This document shows positions 1,485 to 19,969 of a DNA stretch of 64,000 bases, one piece after another. How positions within the stretch are numbered: the stretch's first letter is position 1; each line of letters begins with the position of its first letter. A program made the translations under genes and the position numbers. Under the pieces are notes generated by a model. That model saw only the letters and a list, made by a program, of their open reading frames with translations. It ran no database searches and had not been told where the DNA came from. Origin of the DNA: Planctomycetota bacterium (GTDB lineage: Bacteria; Planctomycetota; Planctomycetia; Pirellulales; Lacipirellulaceae). Location: contig JAADGV010000032.1 in NCBI GenBank assembly GCA_013152205.1, positions 62,001-126,000 on the forward strand, given 5' to 3'.

Positions 1485-3713
1485 CTACTTTTGCGAGTTT
1501 CTCCTCGTAGCGATAACGCCCAACAGGGCAACCGCGAGCAAGGCAATACTGGTCGGCTCGGGTACCGTGGCCGCCGAAGCACTGCCCGCAGAGAGCGCCG
1601 CCGACGTGCCAAAGTTCGATTCCCAAGCGGCCAGACTCGTAGCGTCACCCAAGTCTCGCTGCCACTCCAGGAAGTCAAACCCATCAACATCGCCATCGAC
1701 ATTAAAATCGCCGCCGGTGGCAGTTATGAAATTTGTCGTATTATACTTGAAGAGGTCGCCTGTACCTCCTGGAAGAGTGAAGTTCAATGCGTTACCTGTC
1801 AGGGTGATGAGTTCCTGCAAGCCAGTTTCTCGGTTCAATCGCAATATCTCAGTGACTGTGGTGTCAAACTGAATCGTAAAACCCAAGCTTGTAGCGGCTG
1901 AAGATTCGCCCGCTCCTTGATTGAGATTTGTCAGCATAAAGAAATCTTCACCGAGGTCGTCGGTAAAGAAGCCAATCATACCGTCTTCGCCTAGGGCATT
2001 CCCGTCTGTAGTAATGCTCAGGATATTCGCAATACCGCCGGCCCCAGAACTCCAATCAGTCAGTCCATCGAGTGTGGTATTCGGAACCCCTCCCGTAGTG
2101 CCGGGAATGAACCGCACATCAGAACTTTCTAGCTGGGTAAGCTGCGGCCCCAATCTTCGCACTTCGGCATTGATCGCTTGGGCGATGAAGTACATCGTAT
2201 CTGGATTGCCGGCAGCGTCCAGCAATGCCTCGTCCAAGAATTTGGCATGCGTAAAATAACTTATTCCGGTGTAGCCGGCGGCAAGATTTGAGTACACATT
2301 CATCCGCATGTCTGATTCGCTAGAAGCACGCAATGCGCCGGCGATGGCAACACTCTGAACGTAAGCCCAATACGGCTTGTTTTCGGAAATAGCACGATTA
2401 CGAAGTTCCATGAGGCGATTCATGTAACCGTTCGTATTGGTCGTACCATCTTCGTTGAATGGGTAATTGGCTTGCATTAGAATATCGGGATTGACCTTAG
2501 CCTGTAGGTCATCGTAATAGGCCGCTTGCGTCCCATCTCCCGGATTCACCGCATACGCAGTGACAATAATCGGATAATCTTGAGAGGTCCAACGCATGTT
2601 TGAAATCGTATCCGTCAGACCATCCAGCTCAGTCGGGGTTGGTTCGTCTTTCATGATCCATGCCTGGAAGTTGGGATGGGTTATGTCGTCCATAATTCCG
2701 GCTGCCTCTTCACCCACCGACTTCGGACGCGATCGAATCCATGACTTACCACGATTTTCTGCCACAGAATCAACCAACGCCGTGCTTTGGCTCCAATCCG
2801 CCTCGAATATTGAATAATTGGTGTCCCAGTAAACATCGCCCGGCACGGGATCGTTGGGATCCTCAGTTGTGAGCCCAATGTGACCGAGAATATTGAACGG
2901 GTTGTTCTTGGTCCATTCTCTGCCGAAGCCGTTATCACCCGAACCGAGTTCAGGAGGGTCAGGAAGTCGGTCCCAAGAAAAATAGTCAACTTGTACCGGT
3001 GCTTGGACGGCAGAGTTGGTAGCAGAACCAAAAGAAAGTTTCGGAGCACCCGTTCCAGTAGAAGCAAGCGGAATGGTGGCTACAGTATTGACGCCCCCAT
3101 CGTCTTTTTTCCAAATTACGTCCAGATTTCCATCTTTGAAAGTGTATTGAAGAGTGACAAACACATCATCCGTTGTAGGATTTGTGAAATGGCGAATTTC
3201 GGTGCTAATGTCACTGACTAAATCGTAGACATAGACCCGCTGCTCTGTACGAAGAAGCCCTACGTTATAGAACTCAGTCCCCGCGGTATTCTGCAACCCC
3301 ACGATCACAGCCTGACCCCACATGGAGTTGAGTAAGCCCCCGGTTTCAAGCCCTTGCTTAAAACGCTCTTCGAACACGAACCCGCCTGCAGAATCAATCG
3401 GGGTTACCCCGTTAGCGGCGGGGTTATCCAGGGCGTAGTCCCACTGCGTAATAGGACTAACTGGATTCGATGGCGAGCCAAAGGGACCATTCCAACTGAA
3501 AAAATCGCCAGCCACTTCGAGTACGTCGCCCGTTCCGGGTGTGTTTCGAGTCAAAGTCCACGAAGGTGTAGAAGCACTAGGTAGTGGAGATCCACCTGTC
3601 GGGTCGTAGGTGTAGTTGTAGTTCCCCGGAGCCGGGGCTGCCGTGGCAGACGCACCAAGACAGACCAGCATCAACACCATCGTCATCCACACGGAGAACT
3701 TGCGAACCATCAT
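1485..3713 (-). CDS. Secreted PEP-CTERM protein with dockerin-like repeat and putative TIM-barrel hydrolase domain
   Basis: This 742-residue protein has a Sec signal (MMVRKFSVWMTMVLMLVCLGASATAAPA). Next comes a beta-sandwich-like domain of about 220 residues that is closely repeated in the neighbouring 267-aa protein. A middle region of about 360 residues looks like an alpha/beta barrel with acidic motifs (WIMKDEPTP, ANYPFNEDG, YWAYVQSVAI) and resembles glycoside-hydrolase barrels, though I cannot name a family. Near the end is one dockerin-like calcium loop (GDFNVDGDVDGFDFLEWQRD). It closes with a PEP-CTERM anchor (VPEPTSIALLAVALLGVIATRR). Family knowledge says PEP-CTERM tails direct sorting to the cell envelope; the polysaccharide-hydrolase role is inference. 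Confidence 0.75.
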   Translation of the reverse strand: MMVRKFSVWMTMVLMLVCLGASATAAPAPGNYNYTYDPTGGSPLPSASTPSWTLTRNTPGTGDVLEVAGDFFSWNGPFGSPSNPVSPITQWDYALDNPAANGVTPIDSAGGFVFEERFKQGLETGGLLNSMWGQAVIVGLQNTAGTEFYNVGLLRTEQRVYVYDLVSDISTEIRHFTNPTTDDVFVTLQYTFKDGNLDVIWKKDDGGVNTVATIPLASTGTGAPKLSFGSATNSAVQAPVQVDYFSWDRLPDPPELGSGDNGFGREWTKNNPFNILGHIGLTTEDPNDPVPGDVYWDTNYSIFEADWSQSTALVDSVAENRGKSWIRSRPKSVGEEAAGIMDDITHPNFQAWIMKDEPTPTELDGLTDTISNMRWTSQDYPIIVTAYAVNPGDGTQAAYYDDLQAKVNPDILMQANYPFNEDGTTNTNGYMNRLMELRNRAISENKPYWAYVQSVAIAGALRASSESDMRMNVYSNLAAGYTGISYFTHAKFLDEALLDAAGNPDTMYFIAQAINAEVRRLGPQLTQLESSDVRFIPGTTGGVPNTTLDGLTDWSSGAGGIANILSITTDGNALGEDGMIGFFTDDLGEDFFMLTNLNQGAGESSAATSLGFTIQFDTTVTEILRLNRETGLQELITLTGNALNFTLPGGTGDLFKYNTTNFITATGGDFNVDGDVDGFDFLEWQRDLGDATSLAAWESNFGTSAALSAGSASAATVPEPTSIALLAVALLGVIATRRNSQK

Positions 3714-3768
3714 CTTCTCTCTTTCGTCGTGAGTAGAAATGTCAACTAGCGAGACGGGTGTCTCAATA

Positions 3769-3803
3769 ACCGGGTGGCTAGGGCTGAGCCTCAGCCACCC
3801 GGT
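3769..3803. terminator. Strong hairpin between the two PEP-CTERM genes
   Basis: ACCGGGTGGCT (3769-3779) and AGCCACCCGGT (3793-3803) form a perfect 11-bp stem around a 13-base loop that can itself pair. It lies just past the stop of the 267-aa gene and before the 742-aa gene on the minus strand. No U-run follows, so it may be a factor-dependent terminator or a stabilising 3' structure. Confidence 0.5.
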
Positions 3804-3832
3804 CGGGGTTCTTCAATGGTTTTCCGTATAAC

Positions 3833-4636
3833 CTACATTCTGCGACGACGAACCATCATCACCAAGCTACCCAAGCCCATTAGGCCAAACGTAGTAGGCT
3901 CCGGGATGGCACTCCACGCGTAATAGTCAACCGATATTGGCGCTTGGACGTTGGAACTGGTGTAAGAACCGAAAGCAAGTTCCGGACTACCTGATCCCGT
4001 AGAAGCAAGTGCAATCGTTACAGGGGTACTGGGGCCCCCACCTGAGTCCCAGACAACGTCAAGATTTCCGTCCTTGAAAGTGTACTTGGCGGTCACAAAC
4101 GTACCTGGCCCGGCGAAGTGACGGATTTCAGTATTATTATCGTTGAGCAAATCGTAGACATAAATGCGCTGCTCTGTGTGAAGAATCGCGACGCGATAGA
4201 ACTGAGTCTGAGCGGTATTCTCTAACCCCACAAACACGGCCTGACCCCACATGGAGTTGAGCAAGCCACCGCTTTCAAAATCTTGCTCGAAGCGTTCCTC
4301 GAATACAAACCCGCCTGCAGAATCAATTGGGGTTACCCCGTTTGCGGCAGGGTTATCCAGGGCGTAGTTCCAATTTCCAGGAGTACTCATGGGATTCGAT
4401 GGCGAGCCATTGGGCCCATCCCAACTGAAAAGTTCGCCAGCGACTTCAAGCGCATCCCCCGTGCCGGCTGGGCGAGTCAAGGTCCACGATGGCGTTGAAG
4501 CACTGGGTAGCGGAGCGCCACCTGTCGGGTCGTACGTGTAGGCGTAATCCATGACGCCTGCCATTGCGGACGAGAAAATACCCGTCAAAGCCAATCCTGC
4601 TGTCAGAAAAATTAACGTGAGCTTGCGTGACATCAT
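3833..4636 (-). CDS. Secreted PEP-CTERM protein, paralogous to the N-terminal domain of the downstream gene
   Basis: The 267-residue product has a signal peptide (MMSRKLTLIFLTAGLALTGIFSSAMA). It then has a domain that matches the first ~240 residues of the adjacent 742-aa protein almost motif for motif: YTYDPTGGxPLPSASTPSWTLTR, ALDNPAANGVTPIDSAGGFVFEERF, GGLLNSMWGQAV, YTFKDGNLDV. It ends with a PEP-CTERM anchor (IPEPTTFGLMGLGSLVMMVRRRRM). It lacks the barrel and the dockerin-like repeat. The pair looks like a tandem duplication in which one copy carries an extra catalytic-like module. The shared domain resembles a lectin-like jelly roll and may bind carbohydrate, which is inference. Confidence 0.78.
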   Translation of the reverse strand: MMSRKLTLIFLTAGLALTGIFSSAMAGVMDYAYTYDPTGGAPLPSASTPSWTLTRPAGTGDALEVAGELFSWDGPNGSPSNPMSTPGNWNYALDNPAANGVTPIDSAGGFVFEERFEQDFESGGLLNSMWGQAVFVGLENTAQTQFYRVAILHTEQRIYVYDLLNDNNTEIRHFAGPGTFVTAKYTFKDGNLDVVWDSGGGPSTPVTIALASTGSGSPELAFGSYTSSNVQAPISVDYYAWSAIPEPTTFGLMGLGSLVMMVRRRRM

Positions 4637-4743: not shown

Positions 4744-5457
4744 CTATCCTTCATTCTCAGTGGCACGGATCTCATCCCAAGACAGCCGGCGTATCGCCTC
4801 AATCGTGGCACGAATCCGCTGTTTGACCAGCTGCTCGGCGAGGTCCTGATCGTGCTGGGCAATCGCTTCGGCCACGTTGGTCCAACTCGGCAGCTTGCTG
4901 CGCACCACCTCGGGAACCTGAGCTTGGATCAATTTGCTTGTGCGTTGCGAGCCGGGGCGCAACGGCGCTAACTGATAAGACTGCCAGATCTGATAGAGCA
5001 ATGGATTGCCACAGTTGGCCATTAGGTATTCATGGTATTCCGGGATCGGCAGGTTGCGGCGATCGTCGTAGTCGATGGTGAAGTATTGGTCAAACTCAAC
5101 GGCCAACTCACACAGCCGATCAACCTGCCAGCCTGTCATGTTCTTGGCCGCTGCACGGGCCGCTCCCGACTCGATCTGTTCGCGAACTTCGTAGCGATAG
5201 AGCACCTCGTCTCGGCTCTCTTCTTCGAGCACACCGACCACACGACTACGCCGATTTCCACGCTGCCTTAAGAAGCCCTCGGCCTCGAGTCGCAAGATCG
5301 ATTCGCGGACTGGCCCTCGGCTAAGCCCGGTAAGCCGAACTGCCTTGGCTTCGGTAAGTGGCTCGCCAGTTCCAATCTGGCCTTGATGGATCATATGGAC
5401 GAGTTGCTGATATGCCTCGTCGGACTTGCTCGATCTTGTCGCAGTATCCGTGCTCAT
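4744..5457 (-). CDS. GntR-family transcriptional regulator with FCD domain
   Basis: A winged helix-turn-helix occupies roughly residues 12-78 (LTEAKAVRLTGLSRGPVRESILRLEAEGFL, the GntR signature). A FadR/FCD all-helical effector domain follows, with plausible metal-binding histidines (PEYHEYLMANCGNP and AIAQHDQDLAEQ). FCD-type GntR proteins usually repress catabolic operons and are released by organic acids such as gluconate, glucarate or fatty acids. The gene is divergent from the catabolic run starting at 5936. The 478-base gap holds two dyads sharing AATCTTGTT, which are candidate operators. This is the obvious local regulator of the island. Confidence 0.88.
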   Translation of the reverse strand: MSTDTATRSSKSDEAYQQLVHMIHQGQIGTGEPLTEAKAVRLTGLSRGPVRESILRLEAEGFLRQRGNRRSRVVGVLEEESRDEVLYRYEVREQIESGAARAAAKNMTGWQVDRLCELAVEFDQYFTIDYDDRRNLPIPEYHEYLMANCGNPLLYQIWQSYQLAPLRPGSQRTSKLIQAQVPEVVRSKLPSWTNVAEAIAQHDQDLAEQLVKQRIRATIEAIRRLSWDEIRATENEG

Positions 5458-5486
5458 GGCGATCCGTTCATGCTAGTGAATCAAAA

Positions 5487-5498
5487 AACAATCTTGTT
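5487..5498. promoter_or_regulatory. Candidate GntR operator 1
   Basis: AACAATCTTGTT is an inverted repeat (AACAA-TC-TTGTT) 29 bases upstream of the regulator's start codon, placed where an autoregulatory site would be expected. It shares AATCTTGTT with the second site near the divergent genes. Assignment is by position and symmetry only. Confidence 0.4.
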
Positions 5499-5737
5499 AG
5501 CAGGATGCATTCTAGACAACAGTAACAATCTCTGCAATCACTTTTTTCAACTTTTTTATTATTCCCCCACTCTTTCAGCATTCGAAAGCATCGAAAATAG
5601 CACTTTATAAGTAATTTCCGCCGCCACTGGCTCTAAATCAGTAGTGAGCCGCTGGCAGAAGGATCGTCAATTAAACAAAAAATCAGCTACTTAATCCCAT
5701 TTGACCCGCGATTATTTACGTTTGCATCTATTTGGTA

Positions 5738-5757
5738 AACAAAAGATTAATCTTGTT
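5738..5757. promoter_or_regulatory. Candidate GntR operator 2
   Basis: AACAAAAGATTAATCTTGTT contains a perfect 12-bp palindrome, AAGATTAATCTT (5743-5754), and shares AATCTTGTT with the site at 5487-5498. It lies upstream of the plus-strand catabolic genes, about 180 bases before the preferred first start codon. The rest of the 5458-5935 gap is AT-rich, as expected for a divergent promoter region, and no further gene is visible in it. Confidence 0.42.
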
Positions 5758-5935
5758 GATCTTATGGCCTCCCGCAAGTAGAATGCGGCAAAAGTGAGGG
5801 ATCAAGGCACAATCGTGATTTCTGTGACTTGCCCGCATGACTAAGTTGAAGTCGACGGCAGCTTTCAAATTCGCTTCGCCCGCTTCTTCTTACCGTCCGA
5901 CTCCAACATCCCAACTAATGCGGAGCTACTTCCAA

Positions 5936-6853
5936 ATGATTCGACAACAATCGCGTGTTTCAGGTCTCTTGCTTCTTGGTTGGCTGCTTTCTACCTCGTT
6001 TACATGGGCAGCCAACGACAAGGCATCGCAGACTTCGTCTGCAGCAGAGCCTCAAATTGTTCGTGACGCACTCTGGGTGTGGGCTACTCCAGAGAGGGCA
6101 AAATCCGGCGAACATACGGCGGCCACCTACGCTAGCGCTGGTTCTGCGCAACAGGCTCGTATCCTGGGTGTGCCCAACGTAGTGCTGGCCGGCTCAGGAT
6201 TGCCGCACGATCGGGCCCTTGCCGAGAAATGGAGCGCCGAAGTCGCCGACGCACCTCGTGTGGTGTGGGAGATCATGCCGGACAGCGATAACAAAGAAAG
6301 ACCTACCTTCGATTTCAAACAGCGAATCGACCACCTCGCTCTACTCACGACGAAGTATCCGCATATCGAGGCCGTGATGGTCGACGACATGACAAGTGTC
6401 GCCGCTAGGCATGGATTCAAGCCCATACACCTACGCAACATTAAGACGTTACTCAAAGAGCACGAGCTACCACAGAAATTGTGGGGCGTGGTCTACACGA
6501 TGAACTTTTCGAAGGAAACGACCGACCCACTCGTCCGCGAGCTGGACGTGATCAATTTGTGGGTCTGGCAAGCCAAAGATCTCGTCGATCTTGAAAAGCA
6601 CGTTGCTGAATGCGAAAAACGCTACCCTAACAAGCCGATCGTATTGGGCCTGTACATGCGCGACTACGGAGCTGGCCGCCGAATGCCGCTGGACTTGCAT
6701 CAGCAGCAATGTGAAACGGCACTCAAGTTGCTACATCAGAATCGCATTGAGGGGATGGTGTTTCTCTCGATTCACGACGACGTAGAAGTAATCAAGTGGA
6801 CCGCAGATTGGATCAAACAAGTCGATAAACAGAAGCTCGCAGGAGCCCGTTGA
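5936..6853 (+). CDS. Secreted protein of unrecognised family, probable alpha/beta-barrel
   Basis: I place the start at ATG 5936 rather than the track's 5837. GGAG lies 10 bases upstream, and the protein then opens with a normal signal peptide (MIRQQSRVSGLLLLGWLLSTSFTWAAND). The remaining ~280 residues contain barrel-like strands: ALWVWATPE, VVWEIMPDSD, IEAVMVDDMTS, LWGVVYTMNF, VINLWVWQAKD, IVLGLYMRDYG, GMVFLSIHDD. The conserved-looking acidic pairs at strand ends would suit a hydrolase. I do not recognise a named family. It is the first gene after the candidate operator and so a likely member of the GntR regulon, perhaps acting on the substrate outside the cytoplasm. Confidence 0.7.
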   Translation: MIRQQSRVSGLLLLGWLLSTSFTWAANDKASQTSSAAEPQIVRDALWVWATPERAKSGEHTAATYASAGSAQQARILGVPNVVLAGSGLPHDRALAEKWSAEVADAPRVVWEIMPDSDNKERPTFDFKQRIDHLALLTTKYPHIEAVMVDDMTSVAARHGFKPIHLRNIKTLLKEHELPQKLWGVVYTMNFSKETTDPLVRELDVINLWVWQAKDLVDLEKHVAECEKRYPNKPIVLGLYMRDYGAGRRMPLDLHQQQCETALKLLHQNRIEGMVFLSIHDDVEVIKWTADWIKQVDKQKLAGAR

Positions 6854-6901
6854 ATATCCCTAAGCTTAGCTTTCTCAACCGATGGATAGGATAATGAGTT
6901 G

Positions 6902-8071
6902 ATGAACGATGCGGCACTTTGCCTATTTCCTTGGGATCTGCAAGACGAGGGGCTGGAGTCAGTACTTCAGTTCGCAGCCGACTCTGGACTGACGTCGCTG
7001 TTCTTGGCAAGTGTTTATCACGCGGGCTGGTTCGTTCGACCACACAACCCAATTCAAAAATGCTACATGCCGGAAGACGGGGTGGCCTACTTCCATCCGA
7101 CCGAGTCCCTCTACGAAGCTACGCCCTTGAAACCGAAGGTCGCTGAAATTGCCCGGCAGACGGATTGGTTCGCCAGCGTGAGCAGACGGCTCGATGACTT
7201 TGGGCTGCGCCTGACCGCCTGGACGGTTTGCATGCACAATACACGTCTGGGACTTGCGCATCCTGAAGATACGGTGCGGAACGCTTGGGGAGACTCCTAT
7301 CCGCACGCCCTTTGCCCGGCCAGTCCCGCGGTCCGCTCGTATGTGCGGGCGACGGTCAAAGATTTAGCATCCCAGTATCCGCTGCAATCGATCTTTCTTG
7401 AAGCATTGAACTACCGTGGCCGACAACATGGTCACCATCACGAACGAGACGGTACCCCGCTGGGACTGCTGGAAAATGAATTGCTGGACATCAGTTTTTC
7501 CTTTCACGACATCGCTCAGGCCCAGGCGGCCGGGGTGGATGCTCAGCCGCTCCGCACAGCTATCCAAAACCACCTGAATGAATTTTTGTCCTACCTTCCT
7601 AGGCGACCGCCCGGTGCGTCTGAAACGTTGGAACAGTTTTTGAATAGCCATCCAAATCTGTCAGATTACTTGGCGGTGCTGGACGATCAGGTAGCGTCGC
7701 TGGCCGCTGAGATCAAGAATGATGTTTGCGAATCGGGCTTGCTCTTGGAGGGGTGCGAAGACGTCGATGCCTATGATGTCCGTCTGGTCGTGGCCTACGG
7801 AATGCCTCCAGACGCAGTGGCCAACCTGACCCGCGCAGCATGTCAACAGTGTACGGCAAACCAAAAGGTCCGCGTCGGATTTCGTCTTGGCTTTGATTTT
7901 CCCGATCAGCCAGGAGCGATTTTCAACGCCGAGGAAGCTCGAAACTGCGTACGGGCAGCCGTCGAAAATGGGGCCGATTCTGTTTTCTTTTATAACTATT
8001 CAGAGTCTCCGGAAAATTACCTAAACTGGATCAAACCCGCCATTGACGGTTCGATTCAATTGACCGCTTAG
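6902..8071 (+). CDS. Uncharacterised cytoplasmic protein, probable barrel hydrolase
   Basis: About 389 residues without signal peptide or membrane segment. ATG 6902 is preferred over TTG 6899 because AGGA lies 10 bases upstream. Motifs visible are LFPWDLQDEGLESVLQFAADSGL near the start, LTAWTVCMHNTRLG, a probable strand-end acid in SIFLEALNYRGRQHGHHHERDG, VRVGFRLGFDF, and a C-terminal ENGADSVFFYNYSESP. The alternation of hydrophobic strands and helices resembles a TIM barrel, with Glu in FLEALNY a possible catalytic residue. I cannot place it in a known family. It sits 8 bases before the Gfo/Idh/MocA gene, so co-transcription is likely. Confidence 0.7.
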   Translation: MNDAALCLFPWDLQDEGLESVLQFAADSGLTSLFLASVYHAGWFVRPHNPIQKCYMPEDGVAYFHPTESLYEATPLKPKVAEIARQTDWFASVSRRLDDFGLRLTAWTVCMHNTRLGLAHPEDTVRNAWGDSYPHALCPASPAVRSYVRATVKDLASQYPLQSIFLEALNYRGRQHGHHHERDGTPLGLLENELLDISFSFHDIAQAQAAGVDAQPLRTAIQNHLNEFLSYLPRRPPGASETLEQFLNSHPNLSDYLAVLDDQVASLAAEIKNDVCESGLLLEGCEDVDAYDVRLVVAYGMPPDAVANLTRAACQQCTANQKVRVGFRLGFDFPDQPGAIFNAEEARNCVRAAVENGADSVFFYNYSESPENYLNWIKPAIDGSIQLTA

Positions 8072-8079
8072 AGGATCAC

Positions 8080-9201
8080 ATGACGTTACGTGTTGGACTG
8101 ATTGGTTGTGGTGCGATCAGCGAGAGTCATCTGACGGCGCTCTGTGCTCAGACAGATGTCAACGTGGTTGCGTGCGCCGATCTGTGTCTCGAAGCCGCCC
8201 AAAGGCGTGCCGATCAATTTGAGATTCCCCATGTGTTTAGTAATGCCGACGAACTGCTCGAATTAGTCGATATTGATCTGGTTTCCATCTGCGTGCCTCC
8301 GAAGTGGCATGAGAAACTGTTTCTCGATGCAATAGCATGCAACAAACACGTCTTGATCGAAAAGCCGCTGGCAACGGATCTTGCCGGGGCCGACCGCATG
8401 GTCGAAGCCATGGACAAGTCCGATCGCATCGCAGCAGTGCCCCTGATACACCGGTATTCTCCTGGCTACCACGCCTTACGCCAACTCATCGAATGCGGGG
8501 CGATTGGTTCTGTCCGATCGGTGCGACTTGAGTTCGGAACCGATATGTACCGAGACAGCCGTTTCTCGAAACATCAACAAGACCCTCGCGGTTGGTTGGT
8601 TAATCAGGAGATAGCGGGCGGGGGGCTGCTGATGTCCTCAACGATTCATTTTTTGTCAGTGCTCTTGCATGTACTAGGTAACTTCTCGGCTAAGAGCGTG
8701 ACGGCACATGTGCAGCAACTCCACCCTAAATCGTTGGATGGGATTGAAGACGATGTCGACCTCTCTATCAAGCTTGATAACGGTAGCGAGATACTGCTTC
8801 ACGAAAGCTGGAGACGCAATATTCCCTATCGGTGTGAAATTATCGGAGATTGTGGACGATTTCTGATCACTTCGGGCAACACATGGAACGATCTGTCGAT
8901 CATAGGACGATGCCAGGGAGATGTGCCCAGGCAGTATCAATCGTTTCTGAAGGGCGATGAATTTCACGCGGAAGCATCGGCACTGACCGCGCCATTTTCA
9001 CCGTCGTTCGGTGGACTAATGGAGGACCTTTTCTGCAGCATTCAAAAGGGAAAGCATATGGAGCGACTCCCCGATTTGCTCCATGCCCGCAACATGCAGG
9101 CGATCGTTGCAGCTTGCTATCAGTCCGAGCGATTGAAGACTGTGGCAAGAGTCGACTGGCGGAAGAATGCCAACCTCTTGCCTAGCATCTCGAAAGAGTG
9201 A
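8080..9201 (+). CDS. Gfo/Idh/MocA family NAD(P)-dependent oxidoreductase
   Basis: The 373-residue protein starts with a Rossmann motif (VGLIGCGAISESHLTAL). It carries the family hallmark EKPLATD, whose lysine is catalytic, near residue 97, and the GGGLLMSSTIHFL segment in the C-terminal substrate domain. The usual Asp of the GGGxLxDxGxH motif is replaced by Ser here, while the His remains. Enzymes of this family oxidise or reduce sugars, inositols and sugar acids. GAGGA precedes the ATG by a few bases. It is tightly packed between the unknown 389-aa protein and the MFS transporter. The exact substrate is not readable. Confidence 0.88.
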   Translation: MTLRVGLIGCGAISESHLTALCAQTDVNVVACADLCLEAAQRRADQFEIPHVFSNADELLELVDIDLVSICVPPKWHEKLFLDAIACNKHVLIEKPLATDLAGADRMVEAMDKSDRIAAVPLIHRYSPGYHALRQLIECGAIGSVRSVRLEFGTDMYRDSRFSKHQQDPRGWLVNQEIAGGGLLMSSTIHFLSVLLHVLGNFSAKSVTAHVQQLHPKSLDGIEDDVDLSIKLDNGSEILLHESWRRNIPYRCEIIGDCGRFLITSGNTWNDLSIIGRCQGDVPRQYQSFLKGDEFHAEASALTAPFSPSFGGLMEDLFCSIQKGKHMERLPDLLHARNMQAIVAACYQSERLKTVARVDWRKNANLLPSISKE

Positions 9202-9208
9202 TACCAAG

Positions 9209-10543
9209 ATGAAAGACCCTCAAGAAACAATCGCTACAACTTTCGACGGAGCAGCGGTGACTGATAAAACAAGCCGCCCTACGGCCGTGCTCGTTGCATT
9301 TATTTTCAGCTTGGCCGCGTTCCAAGGCTTTACGATAAATCTCATGCCGCTGCTTTTCGATACGATTGATCGAGCTTTCGATCTGAATCTTCGTCAAGAA
9401 GGGCAGTTGCAGTCATTTTCTCTCATCGGGGCGATCTTCGGGCTATCGATGTCGGGTTACGTAACCGAAATCGTACGAGCCAAACGCTCGGGAATGCTTG
9501 CGCTATTTGTGATCGGCCTTGGATCGCTGTTGCTTGGCTTCGCGACGACCTATACCCAGGTGCTCCTTGCCGCCATCGTGATAGGCATGGGAGATATGTG
9601 GGTTATAGCCGTTTACAGCGCCGTCATCACGAAATTCTTCCCCGAAAATCGCCAGCGAATGTTCATGTGGACATTGGCAGCCTTTGCCGGGAGTGCGGCT
9701 GTCGGAAACACATTATTCGGCTTTCTTTTGGACAGTGTCTCTCCGTGGCAGTGGATCTTTATCGGCTTTGGCGTACTGACATGGCTCTGGCTTGTCCTGC
9801 TGATGTTGATTGCCGGTCGACGACTGGACGTGATCGGAAAGCCTGCTCGAACAAGCGGCACAAGCACCACTACCGATTTGGCAAGATCTGCATCGGTTCT
9901 CGCTACAGTAAGGCAATTTCTATTCAGCGGGATTTTTAACCGCGGTACGTTTTGGATGCTCGGCTTCCTCGTCGTGCTCGACAACCTCGTGGCCGGGAAT
10001 ATGGTAGCTTGGACGGCACGGTATTTCCAATTGGAGTACGCCGTCGGGAATAAGATTGCTGGGTCCGTTCTTGGCTCGGTAGCCGCTGGAGTCTTCGTTG
10101 GTCGTCTTGTGTTGGGCACGTTTATTAGCGGGAGGTTTTCCGACCGAGTCGTCCTAGGAACCTGCTACGGACTCGGCCTTCTTATGTACGTTCTTGTTCT
10201 GGCTATCCCAAACTATCAGGTTGGCATGGCGCTAATGTTTCTTGCCGGAGCTTTTATCGCAGCCCAAGCACCGACCATGTACTCTTTAGCCTCGGAAAAA
10301 TTTGGCGATCGCGCCGCGACTGCCATCCCGCTGATGGATGCGGTCGGAGCCCTGGGTGGATTAGGTGGACCAGTCCTCATTGGAGCCTTAGCTGACGAGT
10401 CGGATTTGGCAACCGTCCTTTGGATCATCCCCGCTTTGGGAGCTTTTTTCGTTGCAATCGTATTTACTTGGGAGTGGATCGATCGACGGCCAGCGCAGGA
10501 AAAATCCATACCGATCGCACCACTAGTCTTGGATGAACCATAA
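9209..10543 (+). CDS. MFS transporter
   Basis: A 444-residue protein with about twelve hydrophobic segments in two halves. Recognisable Major Facilitator features are the loop motifs after TM2 (GYVTEIVRAKRSG) and the mirrored segment in the second half (GRLVLGTFISGRFSDR). The track ORF begins at 9167, overlapping the upstream gene by 35 bases. ATG at 9209 (MKDPQETIATTF) removes the overlap, leaving a 7-base gap. Position within the island makes it the likely importer of the pathway substrate or an intermediate. Sequence alone does not show specificity. Confidence 0.88.
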   Translation: MKDPQETIATTFDGAAVTDKTSRPTAVLVAFIFSLAAFQGFTINLMPLLFDTIDRAFDLNLRQEGQLQSFSLIGAIFGLSMSGYVTEIVRAKRSGMLALFVIGLGSLLLGFATTYTQVLLAAIVIGMGDMWVIAVYSAVITKFFPENRQRMFMWTLAAFAGSAAVGNTLFGFLLDSVSPWQWIFIGFGVLTWLWLVLLMLIAGRRLDVIGKPARTSGTSTTTDLARSASVLATVRQFLFSGIFNRGTFWMLGFLVVLDNLVAGNMVAWTARYFQLEYAVGNKIAGSVLGSVAAGVFVGRLVLGTFISGRFSDRVVLGTCYGLGLLMYVLVLAIPNYQVGMALMFLAGAFIAAQAPTMYSLASEKFGDRAATAIPLMDAVGALGGLGGPVLIGALADESDLATVLWIIPALGAFFVAIVFTWEWIDRRPAQEKSIPIAPLVLDEP

Positions 10544-10605: not shown

Positions 10606-11451
10606 ATGGCAAAATCGCCCATTGAGCTACACGACGTAAAGACGAAACGGTCTACCGTTTCGCCGGGGCGCCAACTGAAAGGCCGCCTGCGAGCCGGCGA
10701 AGTACTCCTCGGTGGGATGATTGCCGAATACGTGCGTCCCTCGCTGGTGAAATTGTACTGCCATGCTGGGTTCGATTTCGTTTTCCTTGAATATGAGCAC
10801 GGGTTTTTCAACCCGGCTGATCTGGTGGATGTCGTCCTGTGCGCACGGGATAATGGCCTGCCCGTGATCGCCAAGACGCCCCAACTGGAGCGTGCCGAAG
10901 TGGCAAAACTGTTGGACTGTGGCGTGGTCGGCATCCAACTGCCGCGGACCGAGACGCGGACCGAGGTGGAGACGTTACTCAGTTATCTGAAGTTTCCTCC
11001 GTATGGCACACGAGCTGTTGCGCCTAGTTTGGGCAACAGCAGCTACCTTCCGACGGGCGACTGGAAATCGTGGACGGCCGACCAAGACGAAGAGACAACC
11101 CTAGTCGTCCACATCGAAACCCGAGTTGGCTATGAAAACGCGGAGGAGATCATTAGCACGCCGGGTGTCGATATGGTCTATTTCGGAGCAGGCGATTTTT
11201 CTATCGAAATGGGCCAGCCAGGCCAGTACGACCATCCAGACATCCTCGGTCCGCAAGAAGAAATTCTGAGGCTCTGCCAAAAAAACAAAGTGTCGTTCGG
11301 CATGACGGCCTCCGGCGTCGAAACCGCCGGGCAGTGGATCGACAAAGGAGCACAATTCTTCGAAATCACCAATGAATTATCTTTGATATTTCAAGGCGCT
11401 TCCAAGGTAGTGCGTGACTACCGTGAATTCAGTAATAAACAAAGCATGTAG
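10606..11451 (+). CDS. HpcH/HpaI-family class II aldolase (paralog 1)
   Basis: The 281-residue protein aligns with pyruvate-dependent class II aldolases such as HpaI, GarL and RhmA. It has the catalytic His in FVFLEYEHGFF, metal ligands Glu and Asp in HIETRVGYENAEEI and FGAGDFSIEMG, and the PRTET segment. The arginine that normally binds the pyruvate carboxylate (RVP in HpaI) appears as lysine (VIAKTPQ), which could change donor specificity. Such enzymes cleave 2-keto-3-deoxy sugar acids to pyruvate and an aldehyde. An AGAG-type ribosome site precedes the ATG, and the gap to the MFS gene is 62 bases. The residues before MIAEYVRP are an unusual N-terminal extension of about 30. Confidence 0.87.
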   Translation: MAKSPIELHDVKTKRSTVSPGRQLKGRLRAGEVLLGGMIAEYVRPSLVKLYCHAGFDFVFLEYEHGFFNPADLVDVVLCARDNGLPVIAKTPQLERAEVAKLLDCGVVGIQLPRTETRTEVETLLSYLKFPPYGTRAVAPSLGNSSYLPTGDWKSWTADQDEETTLVVHIETRVGYENAEEIISTPGVDMVYFGAGDFSIEMGQPGQYDHPDILGPQEEILRLCQKNKVSFGMTASGVETAGQWIDKGAQFFEITNELSLIFQGASKVVRDYREFSNKQSM

Positions 11452-11528
11452 AGTTGACATCCGACCCCAGATTCGACAGATTCTCGCATAACGGCAATAC
11501 GAAAAACATCTCCTCAGGAGCAATCACC

Positions 11529-12341
11529 ATGTGGAACTCTCAACAACTGGATCAATATCGCGAGCAAGGCTTTCTTGCCCAGCCCGGGTTGCTCACCCAA
11601 GACGAATTGTCGTCGCTCCAGACAGCGGCCAATGATCTTGTTTCGCGCTACGAAGAGATGGTCGAGCTAGTAGGCGATGACGAGGACAACGGCGTCCATT
11701 ACGTGAAAGAAAACAACGGCGCTGTGCGCTCGCTGTTTGCCGCACACCAGCGCATCGAGGCATTTCGACAGGCGATCCGGTTACCCAAAATCGCGGGTCC
11801 CCTAAAGCAGATCTTCGACAACGATGCCTATGTGTTTCACAGTAAGGTGAATGTAAAGGACGCCTTCCAAGGAACCGTCTGGCTCTGGCACCAAGACTAC
11901 GGATATTGGCAGTACGACGGAGTTGACGACCGCATGGCATCGGTGTTAATCATGCTCGACAAAACCACCATCCACGGTGGCTGTCTTTTGTTTGTTCCCG
12001 GTTCACACCAATGGGGCGTACTCGAACATGAGAGTGATGAAGCAACAACCAGCTACAAGCAGTGGTGCGTAACCAAGCCAGCACTCCTAGAGCGAATTCA
12101 GGACGACAGAGTTTATGTTCCAATCGTGGGCGAGCCGGGCGACGTGTTCTTCTTTGATTGTAAAATCTTGCACGGATCAGGGCACAATATGTCGCCCGCT
12201 TCTCGCAAGAGTCTGATCTTCGCTTGTGCTGATGTGGATAACCAACCAAAGGTTGTAGAAAATCCTCGACCCGACTGGGTCGTAGCACGCCAGTTCGAAC
12301 CGTTTACTAACGACATCCAGTTGGAACCGACCGAGAGCTAA
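11529..12341 (+). CDS. Phytanoyl-CoA dioxygenase (PhyH) family Fe(II)/2-oxoglutarate oxygenase
   Basis: The 270-residue product contains the facial-triad motif WLWHQDYGYWQYDG (HxD) and the distal His in FDCKILHGSGHNMSPASRKSL, whose arginine would bind 2-oxoglutarate. GGGCLLFVPGSHQWG-like spacing (HGGCLLFVPGSHQWG) is typical of PhyH proteins. I moved the start from 11454 to ATG 11529 because AGGAG lies about 9 bases upstream and the first 25 residues of the long form look non-coding. The family hydroxylates unactivated carbons of small acids, ectoine or natural products. Placed between two aldolase genes, it may hydroxylate or demethylate a pathway intermediate, which is inference. Confidence 0.86.
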   Translation: MWNSQQLDQYREQGFLAQPGLLTQDELSSLQTAANDLVSRYEEMVELVGDDEDNGVHYVKENNGAVRSLFAAHQRIEAFRQAIRLPKIAGPLKQIFDNDAYVFHSKVNVKDAFQGTVWLWHQDYGYWQYDGVDDRMASVLIMLDKTTIHGGCLLFVPGSHQWGVLEHESDEATTSYKQWCVTKPALLERIQDDRVYVPIVGEPGDVFFFDCKILHGSGHNMSPASRKSLIFACADVDNQPKVVENPRPDWVVARQFEPFTNDIQLEPTES

Positions 12342-12446
12342 AAGAAACGCCGATTGTCGTAAATCGAACGTGTTGTTGCTCTTACTACCCGATCGGTCCA
12401 CAAATTGTTCGTGACAGCTACCTAGCAACAAAGAACAGGATTTTGC

Positions 12447-13214
12447 ATGTACCCCGCAGTCCAGCTCAAAGAAAAACTCACCCGATCCGAGCCAGTCTTA
12501 GGGATCCTAGTTATCGATCACCTCTGGCTGGAGTTAGTCGAAGTAGCGATCAACGCAGGCTTGGATTACCTGATCGTCGACACGGAACATCAATCGAGAA
12601 ACGGAGAATTTGTCGCAGAGGTATGTCGCCTTGGCCGGATGGCCAATTTCCCCATACTACTCCGACCTCAACGAACAGACACGGAGTCGATCAGTTTGGC
12701 GATGGATCTCGGGCCATGCGGCTTGCTTTTGCCGATGATCGAGTCAGCGGAACAACTTGATGGCGTTCGTGACGGTATTTATATGCCTCCACGCGGAAAA
12801 CGTCGTCCTGGCGGAGCCAGCAACCGTTGGGTGACAGAATTCGATTACGAAACCTTCAAGGCCCAGGTCGAAGACCATGTTGTCATTTTGCCACAGATCG
12901 AAGGTCTTCGTGGGCTTGAAAACGCCGCCGCGATCGCCGAACACGAAATTACCACGGCCTTGGCAGCTGGCCCTTTCGATCTTTCAGCCCAGTTAGGCGT
13001 TTGCGGTGACAGCAGCCATGCGAAACTGCAGGCAGCACTTGCTCAGATTCGAGAAGCCGCTAGGCAGGCCGGAAAACCTGCCTGGATGATCGGTAACGCT
13101 GAAGAATTGGCCCGCCAGGGTTACCATTTTATCTGTATGGGTGAACCAACCGCTATGTTAGAGATAGCTCTCAAAAATAAGGTTTCCCAGGTGCGAGAAG
13201 CCGAAATTCAGTAA
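12447..13214 (+). CDS. HpcH/HpaI-family class II aldolase (paralog 2)
   Basis: The 255-residue protein shows the same fold and active-site pattern as paralog 1: His in IVDTEHQS, Arg in ILLRPQR, metal ligands in PQIEGLRGLENA and LAAGPFDLSAQLG. It is far from paralogs 1 and 3 in overall sequence, so it is not a recent duplicate. The Arg expected to bind pyruvate is retained here. AGGA lies 6 bases before the ATG. It lies 28 bases upstream of the enolase-superfamily gene, a classic dehydratase-aldolase pairing in which the dehydratase makes a 2-keto-3-deoxy acid for the aldolase to cleave. Confidence 0.85.
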   Translation: MYPAVQLKEKLTRSEPVLGILVIDHLWLELVEVAINAGLDYLIVDTEHQSRNGEFVAEVCRLGRMANFPILLRPQRTDTESISLAMDLGPCGLLLPMIESAEQLDGVRDGIYMPPRGKRRPGGASNRWVTEFDYETFKAQVEDHVVILPQIEGLRGLENAAAIAEHEITTALAAGPFDLSAQLGVCGDSSHAKLQAALAQIREAARQAGKPAWMIGNAEELARQGYHFICMGEPTAMLEIALKNKVSQVREAEIQ

Positions 13215-13242
13215 GCGGATTCTCAAGGCAGTAGACAGCCGT

Positions 13243-14349
13243 ATGAAAATCGTTGACGTCAAGATTCACAAGTTGATTGTTCCGATGAAACCGGACACTG
13301 TGCATTCGGCGGGTATGGAGGACAAGCTCTGCGCTCCTGATCCGGTTACCGGGCGCAGCTTGAATTTTTGGGACTTTCCCAAATGGATCATCGAACTGGT
13401 GGCCAACGATGGGTCAGTCGGGTTAGGTGAACCGCGGCGCGGCGACCTCTACGAGCCGCTCAGGCAATATGCCGATTTGATTATCGGAAAAACATTGCTT
13501 GAATTGCCGATCGGAAATTTGCCGTTGCCGCACGGTGATGACTACGAGTCGTACATCATCTACGAAGCCTTCGAAATGGCTTGGTTCGATCTACTGGGAA
13601 AACACCTAGGCGTTCCGGTCTGGCATCTGCTGGGCGGCAAGTTGATCAATCGTGTGCCGATCGATTACTGGATGGGCCGGGCTGATCCAGACGAAACGGC
13701 TCGGCGAACACGCAAGGCTCAGGAGCTTGGCTTTCACGGCGTTAAGATGAAGTGCAAGCTGGGCGATCCGATTGTCGAACGTGTGAGGGCGGTCCGTGAC
13801 GTAGCACCCGAGTTTTCGATCGTCTTGGACCCCAACGAACGTTTTGAGAATCTGGAAGGGACCATTGAAGTTTCAAAATCGTTGAAAGGTTTTGAGTGTG
13901 TGACGTTTGAGAGTCCTGTGCCACAGCACCGATTAGATTGGTACGCCGAGCTTCGAAAAACAATCCCGCAGAAGATTGCCCTCCACCTCAACTGCTTGAA
14001 CGACCTGGTAGCAGCTTTGCGAGCCGACGCGGCCGACTACTACAACCTGCTCGGGCCGCTCAAAGAATTTACCGAATGGGCAAAAGTAGCTCAGACCGCT
14101 GGCCATCCCACATGGCGCGGTACGGGGATGGACCTAGGCGTACGCGACATGAGCAGCGTCCACGCAGCGGCCGCAGCTGGCTGCAAGCTGCCATGCGATA
14201 TCATCGGCCACCTGTTCCGCGAGGATGATCTGATCACGCGGCCGATCGAAATGGTCGACGGCGCCATCGTTGTGTCCAATGCGCCCGGTCTAGGCATCGA
14301 ACTCGACACCGATGCTCTAGAAAAGTACCGTGTGCCGGTTGAAGCATGA
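13243..14349 (+). CDS. Enolase-superfamily enzyme (mandelate racemase/sugar-acid dehydratase-like)
   Basis: The 368-residue product has the N-terminal capping domain and the C-terminal barrel of the superfamily. The barrel shows a KxK-type base motif (GVKMKCKLGD) and metal ligands Asp in IVLDPNERF and Glu in VTFESPVPQ. At the usual third ligand position (Glu or Asp) it reads KIALHLNCLND, and the C-terminal catalytic region is RGTGMDLGVRDMSSVHAAAAAG. The altered third ligand suggests a divergent subgroup rather than a standard galactonate or rhamnonate dehydratase. It directly follows an aldolase gene, so the role is probably dehydration of a sugar acid. It is the last gene of the first plus-strand run. 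Confidence 0.83.
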   Translation: MKIVDVKIHKLIVPMKPDTVHSAGMEDKLCAPDPVTGRSLNFWDFPKWIIELVANDGSVGLGEPRRGDLYEPLRQYADLIIGKTLLELPIGNLPLPHGDDYESYIIYEAFEMAWFDLLGKHLGVPVWHLLGGKLINRVPIDYWMGRADPDETARRTRKAQELGFHGVKMKCKLGDPIVERVRAVRDVAPEFSIVLDPNERFENLEGTIEVSKSLKGFECVTFESPVPQHRLDWYAELRKTIPQKIALHLNCLNDLVAALRADAADYYNLLGPLKEFTEWAKVAQTAGHPTWRGTGMDLGVRDMSSVHAAAAAGCKLPCDIIGHLFREDDLITRPIEMVDGAIVVSNAPGLGIELDTDALEKYRVPVEA

Positions 14350-14411
14350 CGCACGGCCTCGTTTTAATATTCGACAGTTTCTGTCCTCGACAAATCATCC
14401 CGAGCGGCCAG

Positions 14412-14865
14412 TTACTGGACATCTTTCCAATAGCTCTCGATCAATTCTTGGATCGACTCGACAGCGGCCCTAAGAATGAGCTGCCCTTTTTCGGCCGAAG
14501 CGAGCGATGGTTTGTCGTACACGCCGTTTTGAGATAGCTCGTGATACGGACGATAGCTGGAGGCCAGACCGTTTAACATATCGAACCACATCGATTCTAC
14601 GCGGACGGATGCCACCGTCCTCTGCCTGAGCCACGTCAACTAATTCTGGCGCGATTTGGAGTATGATGCTCGTTTTTAATTCACAGGCATGTCCCGTTGA
14701 AAGCACTCCACCTTCGTTAATCGACTGGTTTTGTGGGCTCGAAATGGTCCACCAGTTGGCGATCAGACATTCGACGTCCGGATCAAGCTGGCCGATCTGC
14801 TCTAACGAATCCACTTTGGGGTCAAGTGACTCTCGCTCGAGGATGGACCGTCCATTGCTTGGGCG
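14412..14865 (-). pseudogene. Frameshifted remnant of a creatininase-family gene
   Basis: Two overlapping minus-strand frames together spell the C-terminal half of a creatininase/creatinine amidohydrolase-family protein. The first (14470-14865) reads DVECLIANWWTISS..GGVLSTGHACELKTSIILQIAPELVDVAQAEDGG, matching the family's NWW and GHA-E-ETS-L-P-V motifs. The second (14412-14639) continues with ASSYRPYHELSQNGVYDKPSLASAEKGQLILRAAVESIQELI, the family's usual end. A +1/-1 shift near 14590-14640 is needed to join them. A stop codon (TAA near 14873) and absence of the N-terminal half upstream show that it is also truncated. The gene likely belonged to the catabolic island and was lost. Confidence 0.68.
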
Positions 14866-15120
14866 TTAGTTGTTTGTTTTGGCGTGGCCGCCAACGCTAA
14901 CTTTTTATTGATGTGTGTATCAGAAACATTGAGATTCTGGTAGGGATTTTCTCATCGGTATCCACTATAACTCACGAAAGAACTACCTTTTTCTGTGCCT
15001 GAGGCCGTTTGTCCCTCGTAGCAGCGTGGCCGCCGTCGCTAACGATTGCAGCTCGGGACACCGTGTTTTGCAGAATTGTAAATTCAGTAGCCATTTGAAT
15101 TATCAGAAGAACTAATCCTT
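14866..15120. other. Non-coding gap with two copies of a dispersed intergenic word
   Basis: No gene is visible. The stretch holds GGCGTGGCCGCCAACGCTAAC (14881-14901) and GCGTGGCCGCCGTCGCTAACG (15024-15044), members of a short repeat family seen at five more intergenic positions in this window. The promoter of the sialidase-like gene must lie here, but no clear -35/-10 pair stands out. Confidence 0.6.
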
Positions 15121-16185
15121 ATGCCCTCGATTCAGGTTGTTAGAACGGGTCTTATTGACGAGCGCGACTCGGCATTTCCTCAGACAGTGCAACTGCCCGA
15201 CGGCGATTTGCTTTGCTCATTCAGTGTTGGTGGCGGTGCCGAAGTGACGGGGGGAACCGATTGGGCACGGTCGGTTGACGGGGGAGAAACTTGGACGCTT
15301 GAAGGTACCCTTCTGGCGGCCAATACGAAAAAAGGTTGGGCGAACTTTCTGAAGCTGTCGTTGTCGCCAGATGGCGAAACGATTTATGCCTATGGGGCAG
15401 AAATCGATGCGGATATCACCAAACAATTCGGCGATCGAGACGCGAGAGCAATCCTCTGTAAGTCGACCGATGGTGGGCGCAGGTGGACGTCGCCAAAATT
15501 AGTCGACCTGGGTATTGATTGTTCGTTGGAAATTTCGTTTGCCGTGTTAGCGCACAGTACCGGTCGGCTGCTTGCCCCTGGGGCCACGCTCGCTGACAAG
15601 CAGAAATTGGGCGAGCGAGTTGTTGTTGCTATTTCGGATGATGGTGGCGAGACATGGCCCCAGCACAGCACGGTCTTCTATGATCCGGAAGGGAAAAAAG
15701 CTTTCTTCGAGCACAAGTTTGCCGAGCTACCCGACGGCAACCTGCTTGCGACTGCTTGGACCGCTACGCTGGGGGACTATCGTGACCTTGAGAATAGCTA
15801 TGCGATTTCGCGAGATCGGGGGGCGACTTGGAGCCCTGCGCAATCAACGGGGATTCAAGGTCAAACGCTTTCGACACTTGCGTTGGGAGAAAACCGATTG
15901 CTCGTGCTCTATAACCGTCGCTATGGTAAACAAGCCGTTGTGATGTGTCTGGTGACGTTTGACACGGGGGAATGGACCGTCCATCACGAGGGGGTCATGT
16001 ACGATGCCCATGCTTCGCATGAGCGGGCCGAAGCAGCAGATTCTGGCATCGACGAATTCGACGCCTTTGCCTTTGGGTTTCCGACGGCGATCTCTTTGCA
16101 AGATGGTTCGATCTTGGCGACGCACTGGTGCCATGAGAACGAAAAGAGTGGTATTCGCTGGACGAAATTGCTTGTTGATTGGTAG
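15121..16185 (+). CDS. Sialidase-like/BNR-repeat six-bladed propeller protein
   Basis: The 354-residue protein contains four Asp-box motifs at regular spacing (SVDGGETWT, STDGGRRWT, SDDGGETWP, SRDRGATWS), diagnostic of the BNR/sialidase propeller. There is no signal peptide, so it is predicted to be cytoplasmic, unusual for a true exo-sialidase. Planctomycetes contain many Asp-box proteins whose substrates are unknown. The full catalytic set of sialidases (arginine triad, Tyr/Glu pair) cannot be confirmed by eye. It follows the catabolic run in the same direction and precedes the SSS symporter gene on the opposite strand. Confidence 0.82.
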   Translation: MPSIQVVRTGLIDERDSAFPQTVQLPDGDLLCSFSVGGGAEVTGGTDWARSVDGGETWTLEGTLLAANTKKGWANFLKLSLSPDGETIYAYGAEIDADITKQFGDRDARAILCKSTDGGRRWTSPKLVDLGIDCSLEISFAVLAHSTGRLLAPGATLADKQKLGERVVVAISDDGGETWPQHSTVFYDPEGKKAFFEHKFAELPDGNLLATAWTATLGDYRDLENSYAISRDRGATWSPAQSTGIQGQTLSTLALGENRLLVLYNRRYGKQAVVMCLVTFDTGEWTVHHEGVMYDAHASHERAEAADSGIDEFDAFAFGFPTAISLQDGSILATHWCHENEKSGIRWTKLLVDW

Positions 16186-16240
16186 TGCCAGCTGCTTTGG
16201 CATGGCCGCCAACGCTAACTTGCTCAAACTAAAAACAACC

Positions 16241-16374
16241 AACCACGAATCATACGAATAGCACGAATAATTTGGGTCTTGTCAGGCCCTAAATCAACCC
16301 AGTTCAGACGCATCTCGGGAGGGGGTTTTAGTAAATGCCGACCCTATTCGTGTAAATTCGCGTCATTCGTGGTT
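16241..16374. repeat. Inverted pair of degenerate CACGAAT words
   Basis: AACCACGAATCATACGAATAGCACGAATAA (from 16241) and ATTCGTGTAAATTCGCGTCATTCGTGGTT (16345-16374) are imperfect reverse complements about 70 bases apart. Each contains an internal near-repeat of CACGAAT. It lies between the converging sialidase-like gene and the SSS gene, so it could act as a two-way transcription end. A copy of the GCATGGCCGCCAACGCTAAC word is at 16199-16219. Confidence 0.6.
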
Positions 16375-16415
16375 CAACCCTTTTCACTTTGAGTAACTTG
16401 AATTCAGAATGTTGT

Positions 16416-18158: not shown

Positions 18159-18259
18159 GTCATTATTCTCTCTACAAACTCGCTAAATCTCGCGTCAGCC
18201 TACTTCTGGAAGAGGACACAGGTGCGTTATCATATAAGAATTCTGGACAGGAAGTAACG

Positions 18260-18274
18260 CCCCATTCCATGGGG
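18260..18274. promoter_or_regulatory. Dyad in the divergent SSS/aldolase promoter region
   Basis: CCCCAT-TCC-ATGGGG is a perfect 6-bp-arm dyad midway between the symporter gene and aldolase 3. ACTCTTGTT, one mismatch from the AATCTTGTT shared by the candidate GntR operators, follows immediately (18275-18283). This is a weak regulatory lead only. Confidence 0.3.
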
Positions 18275-18350
18275 ACTCTTGTTTTTTTTCTAGCGTTCAA
18301 GAATTCATCAGCTAGGCAGATTTCTGCCGTTTGGATTGAAGGGTACTACA

Positions 18351-19124
18351 TTGAGATCAAGTAAGACGCTGAAGAAAATTCGTGCTAACGAATCGGTGCG
18401 AATGTGTGTGTTGGGGCACTATGTGCCTTCGTTTATTCGTCATGCGGCCCATTACGGTTTCGATTGTATTTGGCTGGACCTAGAACACCGTATGTTCACC
18501 GATCGCGAAGTCCAAGCAATATTGGCCTATTTCCATCTGGCTGATATCGACTGTATGTTGCGTCCGCCAACGCTGGAAAAATCTCGCCTTTATCGCTACT
18601 TGGAAGATGGGGCGACGGGGTTGATGATTCCTCATGTGTCGACTCCCGAGAAAGCGAAGATGTTGGTCGATGCGGTCAAGTTTCCGCCCATCGGCGACCG
18701 AGGTCTCGATGGTTCCGGGTTGGATGCAGACTACTTCGTAGGAAGCGACGTCGACGAGTACGTTTCTGCTGCCAACCGAGAGACGTTTTTGGTCGTACAG
18801 ATCGAAACTCAAGAGGCTGTTGAGAACGCCGAGGAGATTGCCAGCATCGAAGGAGTCGATGGCATGTTCGTCGGCCCCGGCGACTTGGGCATGCGTTACC
18901 GACGCGAAGGGGCTGGTCGATCGGTTGACGAGGCGATGGCAACCGTTGCAAAGGCCGCTGAAAAGCACGGCAAGGTTTGGGGATGTCCGGCCTCTAGCTT
19001 AGAGCGAATGAAGAAACTCCATGGCATGGGCGCGCGATTGTTGGCCCACGGCGGCGACTTTGAAGCCATGCTGAATATACTGAAGCAATCGGCGTCCCAC
19101 TTTGACGAGATGATAGGATCCTAA
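18351..19124 (+). CDS. HpcH/HpaI-family class II aldolase (paralog 3)
   Basis: The 258-codon frame has His in IWLDLEHRMF, Arg in CMLRPPTLEK, metal ligands in VQIETQEAVENAEEI and VGPGDLGMRYR, and conserved FPPIGDRGLDG. All match 2-keto-3-deoxy acid aldolases. I chose TTG 18351 because AAGGG lies 7 bases upstream; the track's TTG 18336 lacks such a site, and no ATG precedes the conserved region. It is the closest of the three to canonical HpaI/RhmA. Only 2 bases separate it from the SDR gene, so the two are translationally linked, a pairing known for sugar-acid pathways. Confidence 0.87.
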   Translation: MRSSKTLKKIRANESVRMCVLGHYVPSFIRHAAHYGFDCIWLDLEHRMFTDREVQAILAYFHLADIDCMLRPPTLEKSRLYRYLEDGATGLMIPHVSTPEKAKMLVDAVKFPPIGDRGLDGSGLDADYFVGSDVDEYVSAANRETFLVVQIETQEAVENAEEIASIEGVDGMFVGPGDLGMRYRREGAGRSVDEAMATVAKAAEKHGKVWGCPASSLERMKKLHGMGARLLAHGGDFEAMLNILKQSASHFDEMIGS

Positions 19125-19915: not shown

Positions 19916-19969
19916 TTATTAGACGCTGGCTTTGGGGCGATGGGCGCTAGTATGGAGAAGTAATTAGTG

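Follow-up and report, generated by a model that had tools for sequence, protein, structure and literature searches.

Two unrelated TIM-barrel proteins, probable glycosidases, at the head of a putative sugar-acid catabolic island in a planctomycete

Analysis of a 64,000-nucleotide stretch of planctomycete DNA (hereafter the window) suggests that two neighbouring genes, P1 and P2, encode TIM-barrel hydrolases that are unrelated to each other and most likely act as glycosidases, and which would make the first cuts in an island for oxidative catabolism of sugars or amino sugars (probability roughly 0.55). Counted in favour of this for P2 were homology to GHL10, matches to Cwp19, GH156 and GH42, conserved residues and sugar-acid gene neighbours; for P1 they were eight predicted strands, Trp, Asp and Tyr residues at the C-terminal strand ends, the fusion protein at L057 and HpcH/PhyH neighbours in two genomes. 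Counted against it were the low confidence of the structural models, the weak and mixed Foldseek matches of P1, Ala169 and the lack of a second acid pair in P2, the loss of Asp13 in Haladaptataceae and an atypical window copy of P2. The genes and residues concerned are as follows.

4744..5457, minus strand: GntR/FCD regulator, divergent from P1 (Pfam)
5936..6853, plus strand: P1, an exported protein from a family without a name, with a signal peptide followed by a (beta/alpha)8 barrel at about 6070-6840
6383..6388, plus strand: invariant Asp-Asp of P1 (A4 D124-D125, ORF residues 183-184), motif MVDDMTS, end of beta-4; 12 of 12 relatives
6899..8071, plus strand: P2, cytoplasmic (beta/alpha)8-barrel of an unnamed family remotely homologous to GHL10
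7235..7237, plus strand: His113 of P2, after beta-3, proposed general acid; 20 of 22 relatives; register of Cwp19 Arg132 and, by spacing, probably of GH156 His134
7400..7402, plus strand: Glu168 of P2, end of beta-4, motif FLEALNY; 21 of 22 relatives
8080..9201, plus strand: Gfo/Idh/MocA dehydrogenase, 8 nt after P2 (Pfam)
9209..10543, plus strand: MFS transporter (Pfam)
10606..13214, plus strand: HpcH/HpaI aldolase, PhyH dioxygenase and second HpcH/HpaI aldolase (Pfam)
13243..14349, plus strand: enolase-superfamily (MR_MLE) protein, sugar-acid dehydratase/epimerase-like
15121..16185, plus strand: BNR/sialidase-like propeller, a domain type also fused to P1 in locus L057
18336..22118, plus strand: third HpcH aldolase, SDR, AstE/DoeB-like deacylase (19967-20890) and PALP-fold enzyme

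The genes for P1, P2 and the Gfo/Idh dehydrogenase run in the same direction, separated by 45 and 8 nt. Relatives of both P1 and P2 were found in other genomes, so that these are not chance ORFs, and the claim of a sequence-only reading that one protein is secreted and the other cytoplasmic agrees with a predicted signal peptide in P1 and none in P2. The longest P1 ORF opens at ATG 5837. The better start is the ATG at 5936, chosen in that reading: it opens MIRQQSRVSGLLLLGWLLSTSFTWA-AND, which by eye has the typical form of a Sec signal peptide, and GGAG lies 11 nt upstream. P2 starts at TTG 6899 or ATG 6902, with AGGA 7-10 nt upstream.

AlphaFold models were shallow because only sequences from the window and locus L018 were used as input (one for P1, two for P2). 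Eight strand-helix units were nevertheless predicted for each protein at low confidence (pLDDT 60 and pTM 0.59 for P1; pLDDT 54 and pTM 0.57 for P2), in keeping with the barrel-like strand/helix alternation claimed earlier, which for P2 is also backed by homology to GHL10. Searched as single sequences, neither protein matched Pfam, NCBIfam or PDB. A P1 profile likewise matched no named family in Pfam or PDB, and homology of P1 to GHL10, DUF3142 or HpcH (hhalign below 3%) and to P2 (2.4% by profile comparison) was rejected. P1 is a family of its own, for which no known relative could be detected. Its Foldseek matches were weak and mixed, with a chitinase ranked best, GH99 and GH17 at TM 0.54-0.56 and unrelated TIM barrels as well, and for this reason only the fold class is claimed.

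Active sites of TIM barrels lie at the C-terminal ends of the strands. The invariant residues in the alignment of P1 relatives are W21, D124, D125, Y161, D178, W183, W185 and Q232, most of which are located at the C-terminal ends of strands in the AlphaFold model, where beta-4 comprises residues 113-118. The strand-end acidic motifs that had been singled out from the sequence, MVDDMTS and FLEALNY, proved to be the beta-4 ends of P1 and P2 and to hold the best-conserved acids of each. Of the two, only P1 shows the expected conserved Glu/Asp pair, in the form of its invariant Asp-Asp. In P2 a single Glu is nearly invariant, accompanied by Asp13 and His113, and the second acid that GHL10 carries at beta-4 is absent. 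Conserved polar residues at the strand ends and a hydrolase-like character were supported for both proteins.

The 294 Planctomycetota sampled included 7 with a P1 relative, and within the order 5 of 147 genomes had one; P1 had no match in plasmids, and viral contigs searched with four queries gave no relative. In one genome (G061) the P1 relative overlaps an HpcH aldolase gene and in another (G130) it adjoins a PhyH-like gene (assigned by eye), both gene types being present in the window island too. At L057 of genome G384 (7378-9942, minus strand), a P1 domain of 52% identity forms part of one exported protein and is followed C-terminally by a 3-keto-disaccharide hydrolase domain (PF06439, residues 318-500) and a BNR domain (residues 608-803), although P1 itself bears no similarity to either. 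Adjacency of P1 and P2 was not seen outside the window.

At the profile level, the claim that P2 belongs to no recognised family gave way, having stood for both proteins as single sequences. Comparison of the P2 profile with a GHL10 profile, built from at most 19 such domains of planctomycetes, gave 99.3% (hhalign, E 1e-20) over the full barrel (columns 5-376 against 66-382). The window P2 alone gave 80%, and the halophile branch, including the peptidoglycan clusters described below, 97.4%; ten column-shuffled control profiles stayed below 0.5%, and the score for HpcH, a TIM barrel unrelated to P2, was 0.3%. A 22-sequence P2 profile found Cwp19 of Clostridioides difficile, a GHL10 protein and the closest PDB sequence match, at E 1.3e-6, and members of the family weakly matched GHL10, DUF4015 and GHL6. 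The Pfam gathering score for GHL10 (PF02638) was not reached, the window P2 having no match and the best of 22 relatives an E of 0.0037. By profile comparison, P2 is homologous to GHL10 yet a separate family, and it counts as a new family within a known superfamily, in the GHL10/GH156 neighbourhood.

P2 shares with GHL10 and Cwp19 the full-length profile homology, the beta-3 'AW' and beta-4 region and a Tyr at beta-6, but differs from them in falling below the Pfam cut-off, in lacking cell-wall domains and in being cytoplasmic. In the alignment, Trp108 corresponds to the GHL10 Trp (Cwp19 Trp127), His113 takes the position of Arg132, Glu168 that of Asp195 and Ala169 that of Asp196. Asp196 at beta-4 is an active-site residue of Cwp19 and Arg132 at beta-3 is proposed to be catalytic (PMC5765458); both are missing from P2. 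Classical GHL10/GH42 chemistry is disfavoured by these residues, Ala169 standing where the beta-4 acid/base would be. GH42 beta-galactosidase, GHL6 and DUF4015 were matched weakly by several family members and by Foldseek, but P2 has no GH42 Asn-Glu at beta-4 and consists of a single short barrel.

The top Foldseek matches of P2 were GH156 exosialidase (E 2.3e-7, TM 0.47, from the pLDDT-54 model), GH42 and Cwp19. In GH156, Asp14 acts as base and His134 as acid (PMC6811678). At beta-4 of this enzyme, as in P2, the first position is acidic and the second is not (Asp199 and Trp200), and its His134 lies five residues after Arg129, as His113 does after Trp108. We infer that P2 uses Asp13 at beta-1 and His113 at beta-3 in the manner of the GH156 dyad, the correspondence being one of strand and spacing only. 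Conserved residues in the alignment of 22 relatives are W12, H41, W108, H113, N114, E168, Y300 and Y365, with Asp13 absent from the Haladaptataceae branch. A CxCxxC motif, possibly a structural metal site, is kept in 20-21 of the 22 relatives; the window copy (7493-7510) reads S199, S201 and D204 and has Leu in place of Arg261 of the family. Owing to the loss of both, the window P2 may be atypical of its own family.

Of the 294 Planctomycetota sampled, 7 had a P2 relative, and within the class only the window and one marginal match were found among 298. Owing to this sparseness in the phylum and class samples, the distribution looks patchy and the gene mobile. With tblastn, relatives were detected on 152 plasmid records (114 of Rhizobium, most others haloarchaeal), with full-length identities reaching 37%, and were labelled 'hypothetical protein' almost everywhere. 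In rhizobia, the gene adjoins those for an AstE/DoeB-like deacetylase, RidA, a BhcC-like/D-amino-acid-deaminase-like PLP enzyme, a fuconolactonase-like amidohydrolase and a ribose-type ABC transporter, most of which, RidA excepted, are co-directional with the P2 relative in R. tumorigenes. An importer, an amidohydrolase and a PLP enzyme were found at the Aureimonas locus. A planctomycete relative grouping with the rhizobial/Aureimonas-type clade (95/95) lies with an ABC transporter and a RidA-like gene (by eye), an ArgE/DapE deacylase and a BhcC-like enzyme. Haloarchaeal relatives stand beside RidA, creatininase, MR_MLE and SDR genes. In R. leguminosarum TA1 (CP053207.2; L063, 4115-9164), iolC and iolD separate sugar isomerase genes from the P2 homolog RLTA1_31145. 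Several window proteins have relatives in P2 clusters elsewhere, namely AstE (32%), SDR (up to 35%), MR_MLE (29%) and Gfo/Idh.

The rhizobial clusters resemble the ong pathway for oxidised chitin of Pseudoalteromonas, whose core for 2-acetamido-2-deoxygluconate consists of a deacetylase (D-aminoacylase), a D-amino-acid deaminase and RidA (PMC9537276). Both have an N-deacetylase, a D-amino-acid-deaminase-like enzyme and RidA; the rhizobial clusters differ in using another deacetylase family and ABC rather than SSS transport, and in lacking the GH20 OngA. Among the ORFs examined in the window island, the DoeB-like deacylase and PALP-fold enzyme were present, and no RidA, OngC-type gene or KDG kinase was found. 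The island would parallel the ong pathway without belonging to it, since RidA and an OngC-like enzyme are missing from the window. An N-acylated amino-sugar acid is proposed as substrate because the P2 neighbours elsewhere resemble the ong core.

An MR_MLE dehydratase together with an HpcH aldolase is a combination of non-phosphorylating sugar-acid catabolism, and the window island probably serves such a route. The earlier placement of P1 and P2 where a catabolic operon begins was supported. An SSS transporter gene follows the BNR protein on the opposite strand, and a gene for a D-amino-acid-dehydrogenase-like protein follows the PALP-fold enzyme. Three HpcH/HpaI aldolase paralogs (10606-19124) were observed, suggesting several different 2-keto acid substrates. 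Ectoine catabolism was considered and rejected, as PhyH, AstE and PALP scored far below cut-off on ectoine-pathway models. The earlier placement next to a candidate operator was only partly upheld: P1 is divergent from the GntR/FCD regulator, but the stretch between them was searched for inverted repeats and yielded none. A weak direct repeat of 21-23 nt (5479-5499 and 5738-5758, 71-74% identical) lies there and is a possible operator, though with two copies it may be due to chance.

Under the preferred reading of two glycosidases, P1 would cut outside the cytoplasm with the Asp-Asp at beta-4, and P2 would cut an imported glycoside or oligosaccharide in the cytoplasm with an active site of GHL10/GH156 type, where His113 would serve as proton donor, Asp13 as base and Glu168 to orient the substrate, either an N-acylated amino sugar or the corresponding aldonic acid. 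The freed sugar could be oxidised by Gfo/Idh and SDR enzymes, N-deacylated by the AstE/DoeB-like enzyme and deaminated or dehydrated by the PALP or MR_MLE enzyme, with HpcH aldolases finally splitting the product.

A less probable account, though one to be kept in view, is that P2 is no glycosidase but acts further along the pathway as a barrel hydrolase or lyase, for example by opening the ring of an oxidised sugar, hydrolysing its lactone or cleaving an ether in it. Most of its neighbours are sugar-acid enzymes, it is cytoplasmic and it has no canonical acid pair; however, its homology and fold likeness point to glycosidase-type barrels, and a Haladaptataceae relative adjoins NagZ and DUF1343 glycosidase genes. 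That same setting bears on whether P2 is, like Cwp19, a peptidoglycan or muropeptide hydrolase scavenging bacterial wall fragments. Its closest PDB sequence match, Cwp19, is a lytic transglycosylase (PMC6016235), and relatives on three Haladaptataceae plasmids lie in clusters of AnmK, serine hydrolase, DUF1343 and NagZ. That clade, however, is distinct from the window protein and lacks Asp13, the island holds no AnmK, NagZ or DUF1343, and P2 has neither Asp196 and Arg132 of Cwp19 nor a signal peptide, which makes this account unlikely.

Far less likely still is that P2 acts as a sialidase of GH156 type and, together with the BNR protein, supplies sialic-acid catabolism, despite the top fold match and a sialidase-like gene adjoining the P2 relative in Halomontanus. 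Sequence similarity to the exosialidase EnvSia156 is marginal (E 0.19). In the carboxylate triad Arg129-Arg202-Asn346, Asn366 aligns weakly with Asn346, Trp108 takes the place of sialate-binding Arg129 by spacing and Asn171 replaces carboxylate-binding Arg202, disfavouring sialidase chemistry; NanA/NanE-type genes were not recognised in the island. As for P1, a non-catalytic secreted carbohydrate-binding or sensor barrel is a minority reading of some weight: P1 has no homology to any enzyme and lacks a classical catalytic pair whose members sit on different strands. Against this, the invariant residues on the C-terminal rim of the barrel (Asp-Asp, Tyr and Trp) are typical of an active site, and P1 is fused to an enzymatic domain at L057. 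A bolder version of the glycosidase reading is speculative and rather doubtful: P2 would represent a new family of inverting glycosidases that work through an Asp/His dyad, spread over planctomycetes, rhizobia and haloarchaea and releasing amino-sugar aldonic acids or muramyl units intracellularly, with its haloarchaeal branch in an archaeal peptidoglycan-eating pathway, and P1 a second new, exported glycosidase family.

P2 stands for a family on more than 100 Rhizobium plasmid records and several haloarchaeal plasmids, mostly annotated as 'hypothetical protein'. Placed beside GHL10 with named candidate residues, the family has a chemistry open to direct test, and the genes that accompany it suggest an amino-sugar-acid pathway not yet charted. 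On Halorussus and Haladaptatus plasmids (L070, 4129-12504; L072, 3491-12869; L073, 527-9057), one conserved archaeal cluster was observed to hold anhydro-N-acetylmuramic acid kinase, HAD hydrolase, serine hydrolase, the P2 relative, DUF1343 (NamZ-type), NagZ and creatininase, with GH18 and IclR nearby in two of the three. The gene set suggests a pathway for feeding on bacterial peptidoglycan; a literature search found no paper on such a haloarchaeal cluster. These clusters bear on the scavenging of bacterial peptidoglycan by archaea, a question raised in PMC12352652.

Elsewhere in the window (1485-4636, minus strand), two PEP-CTERM proteins with similar N-terminal regions are encoded side by side.
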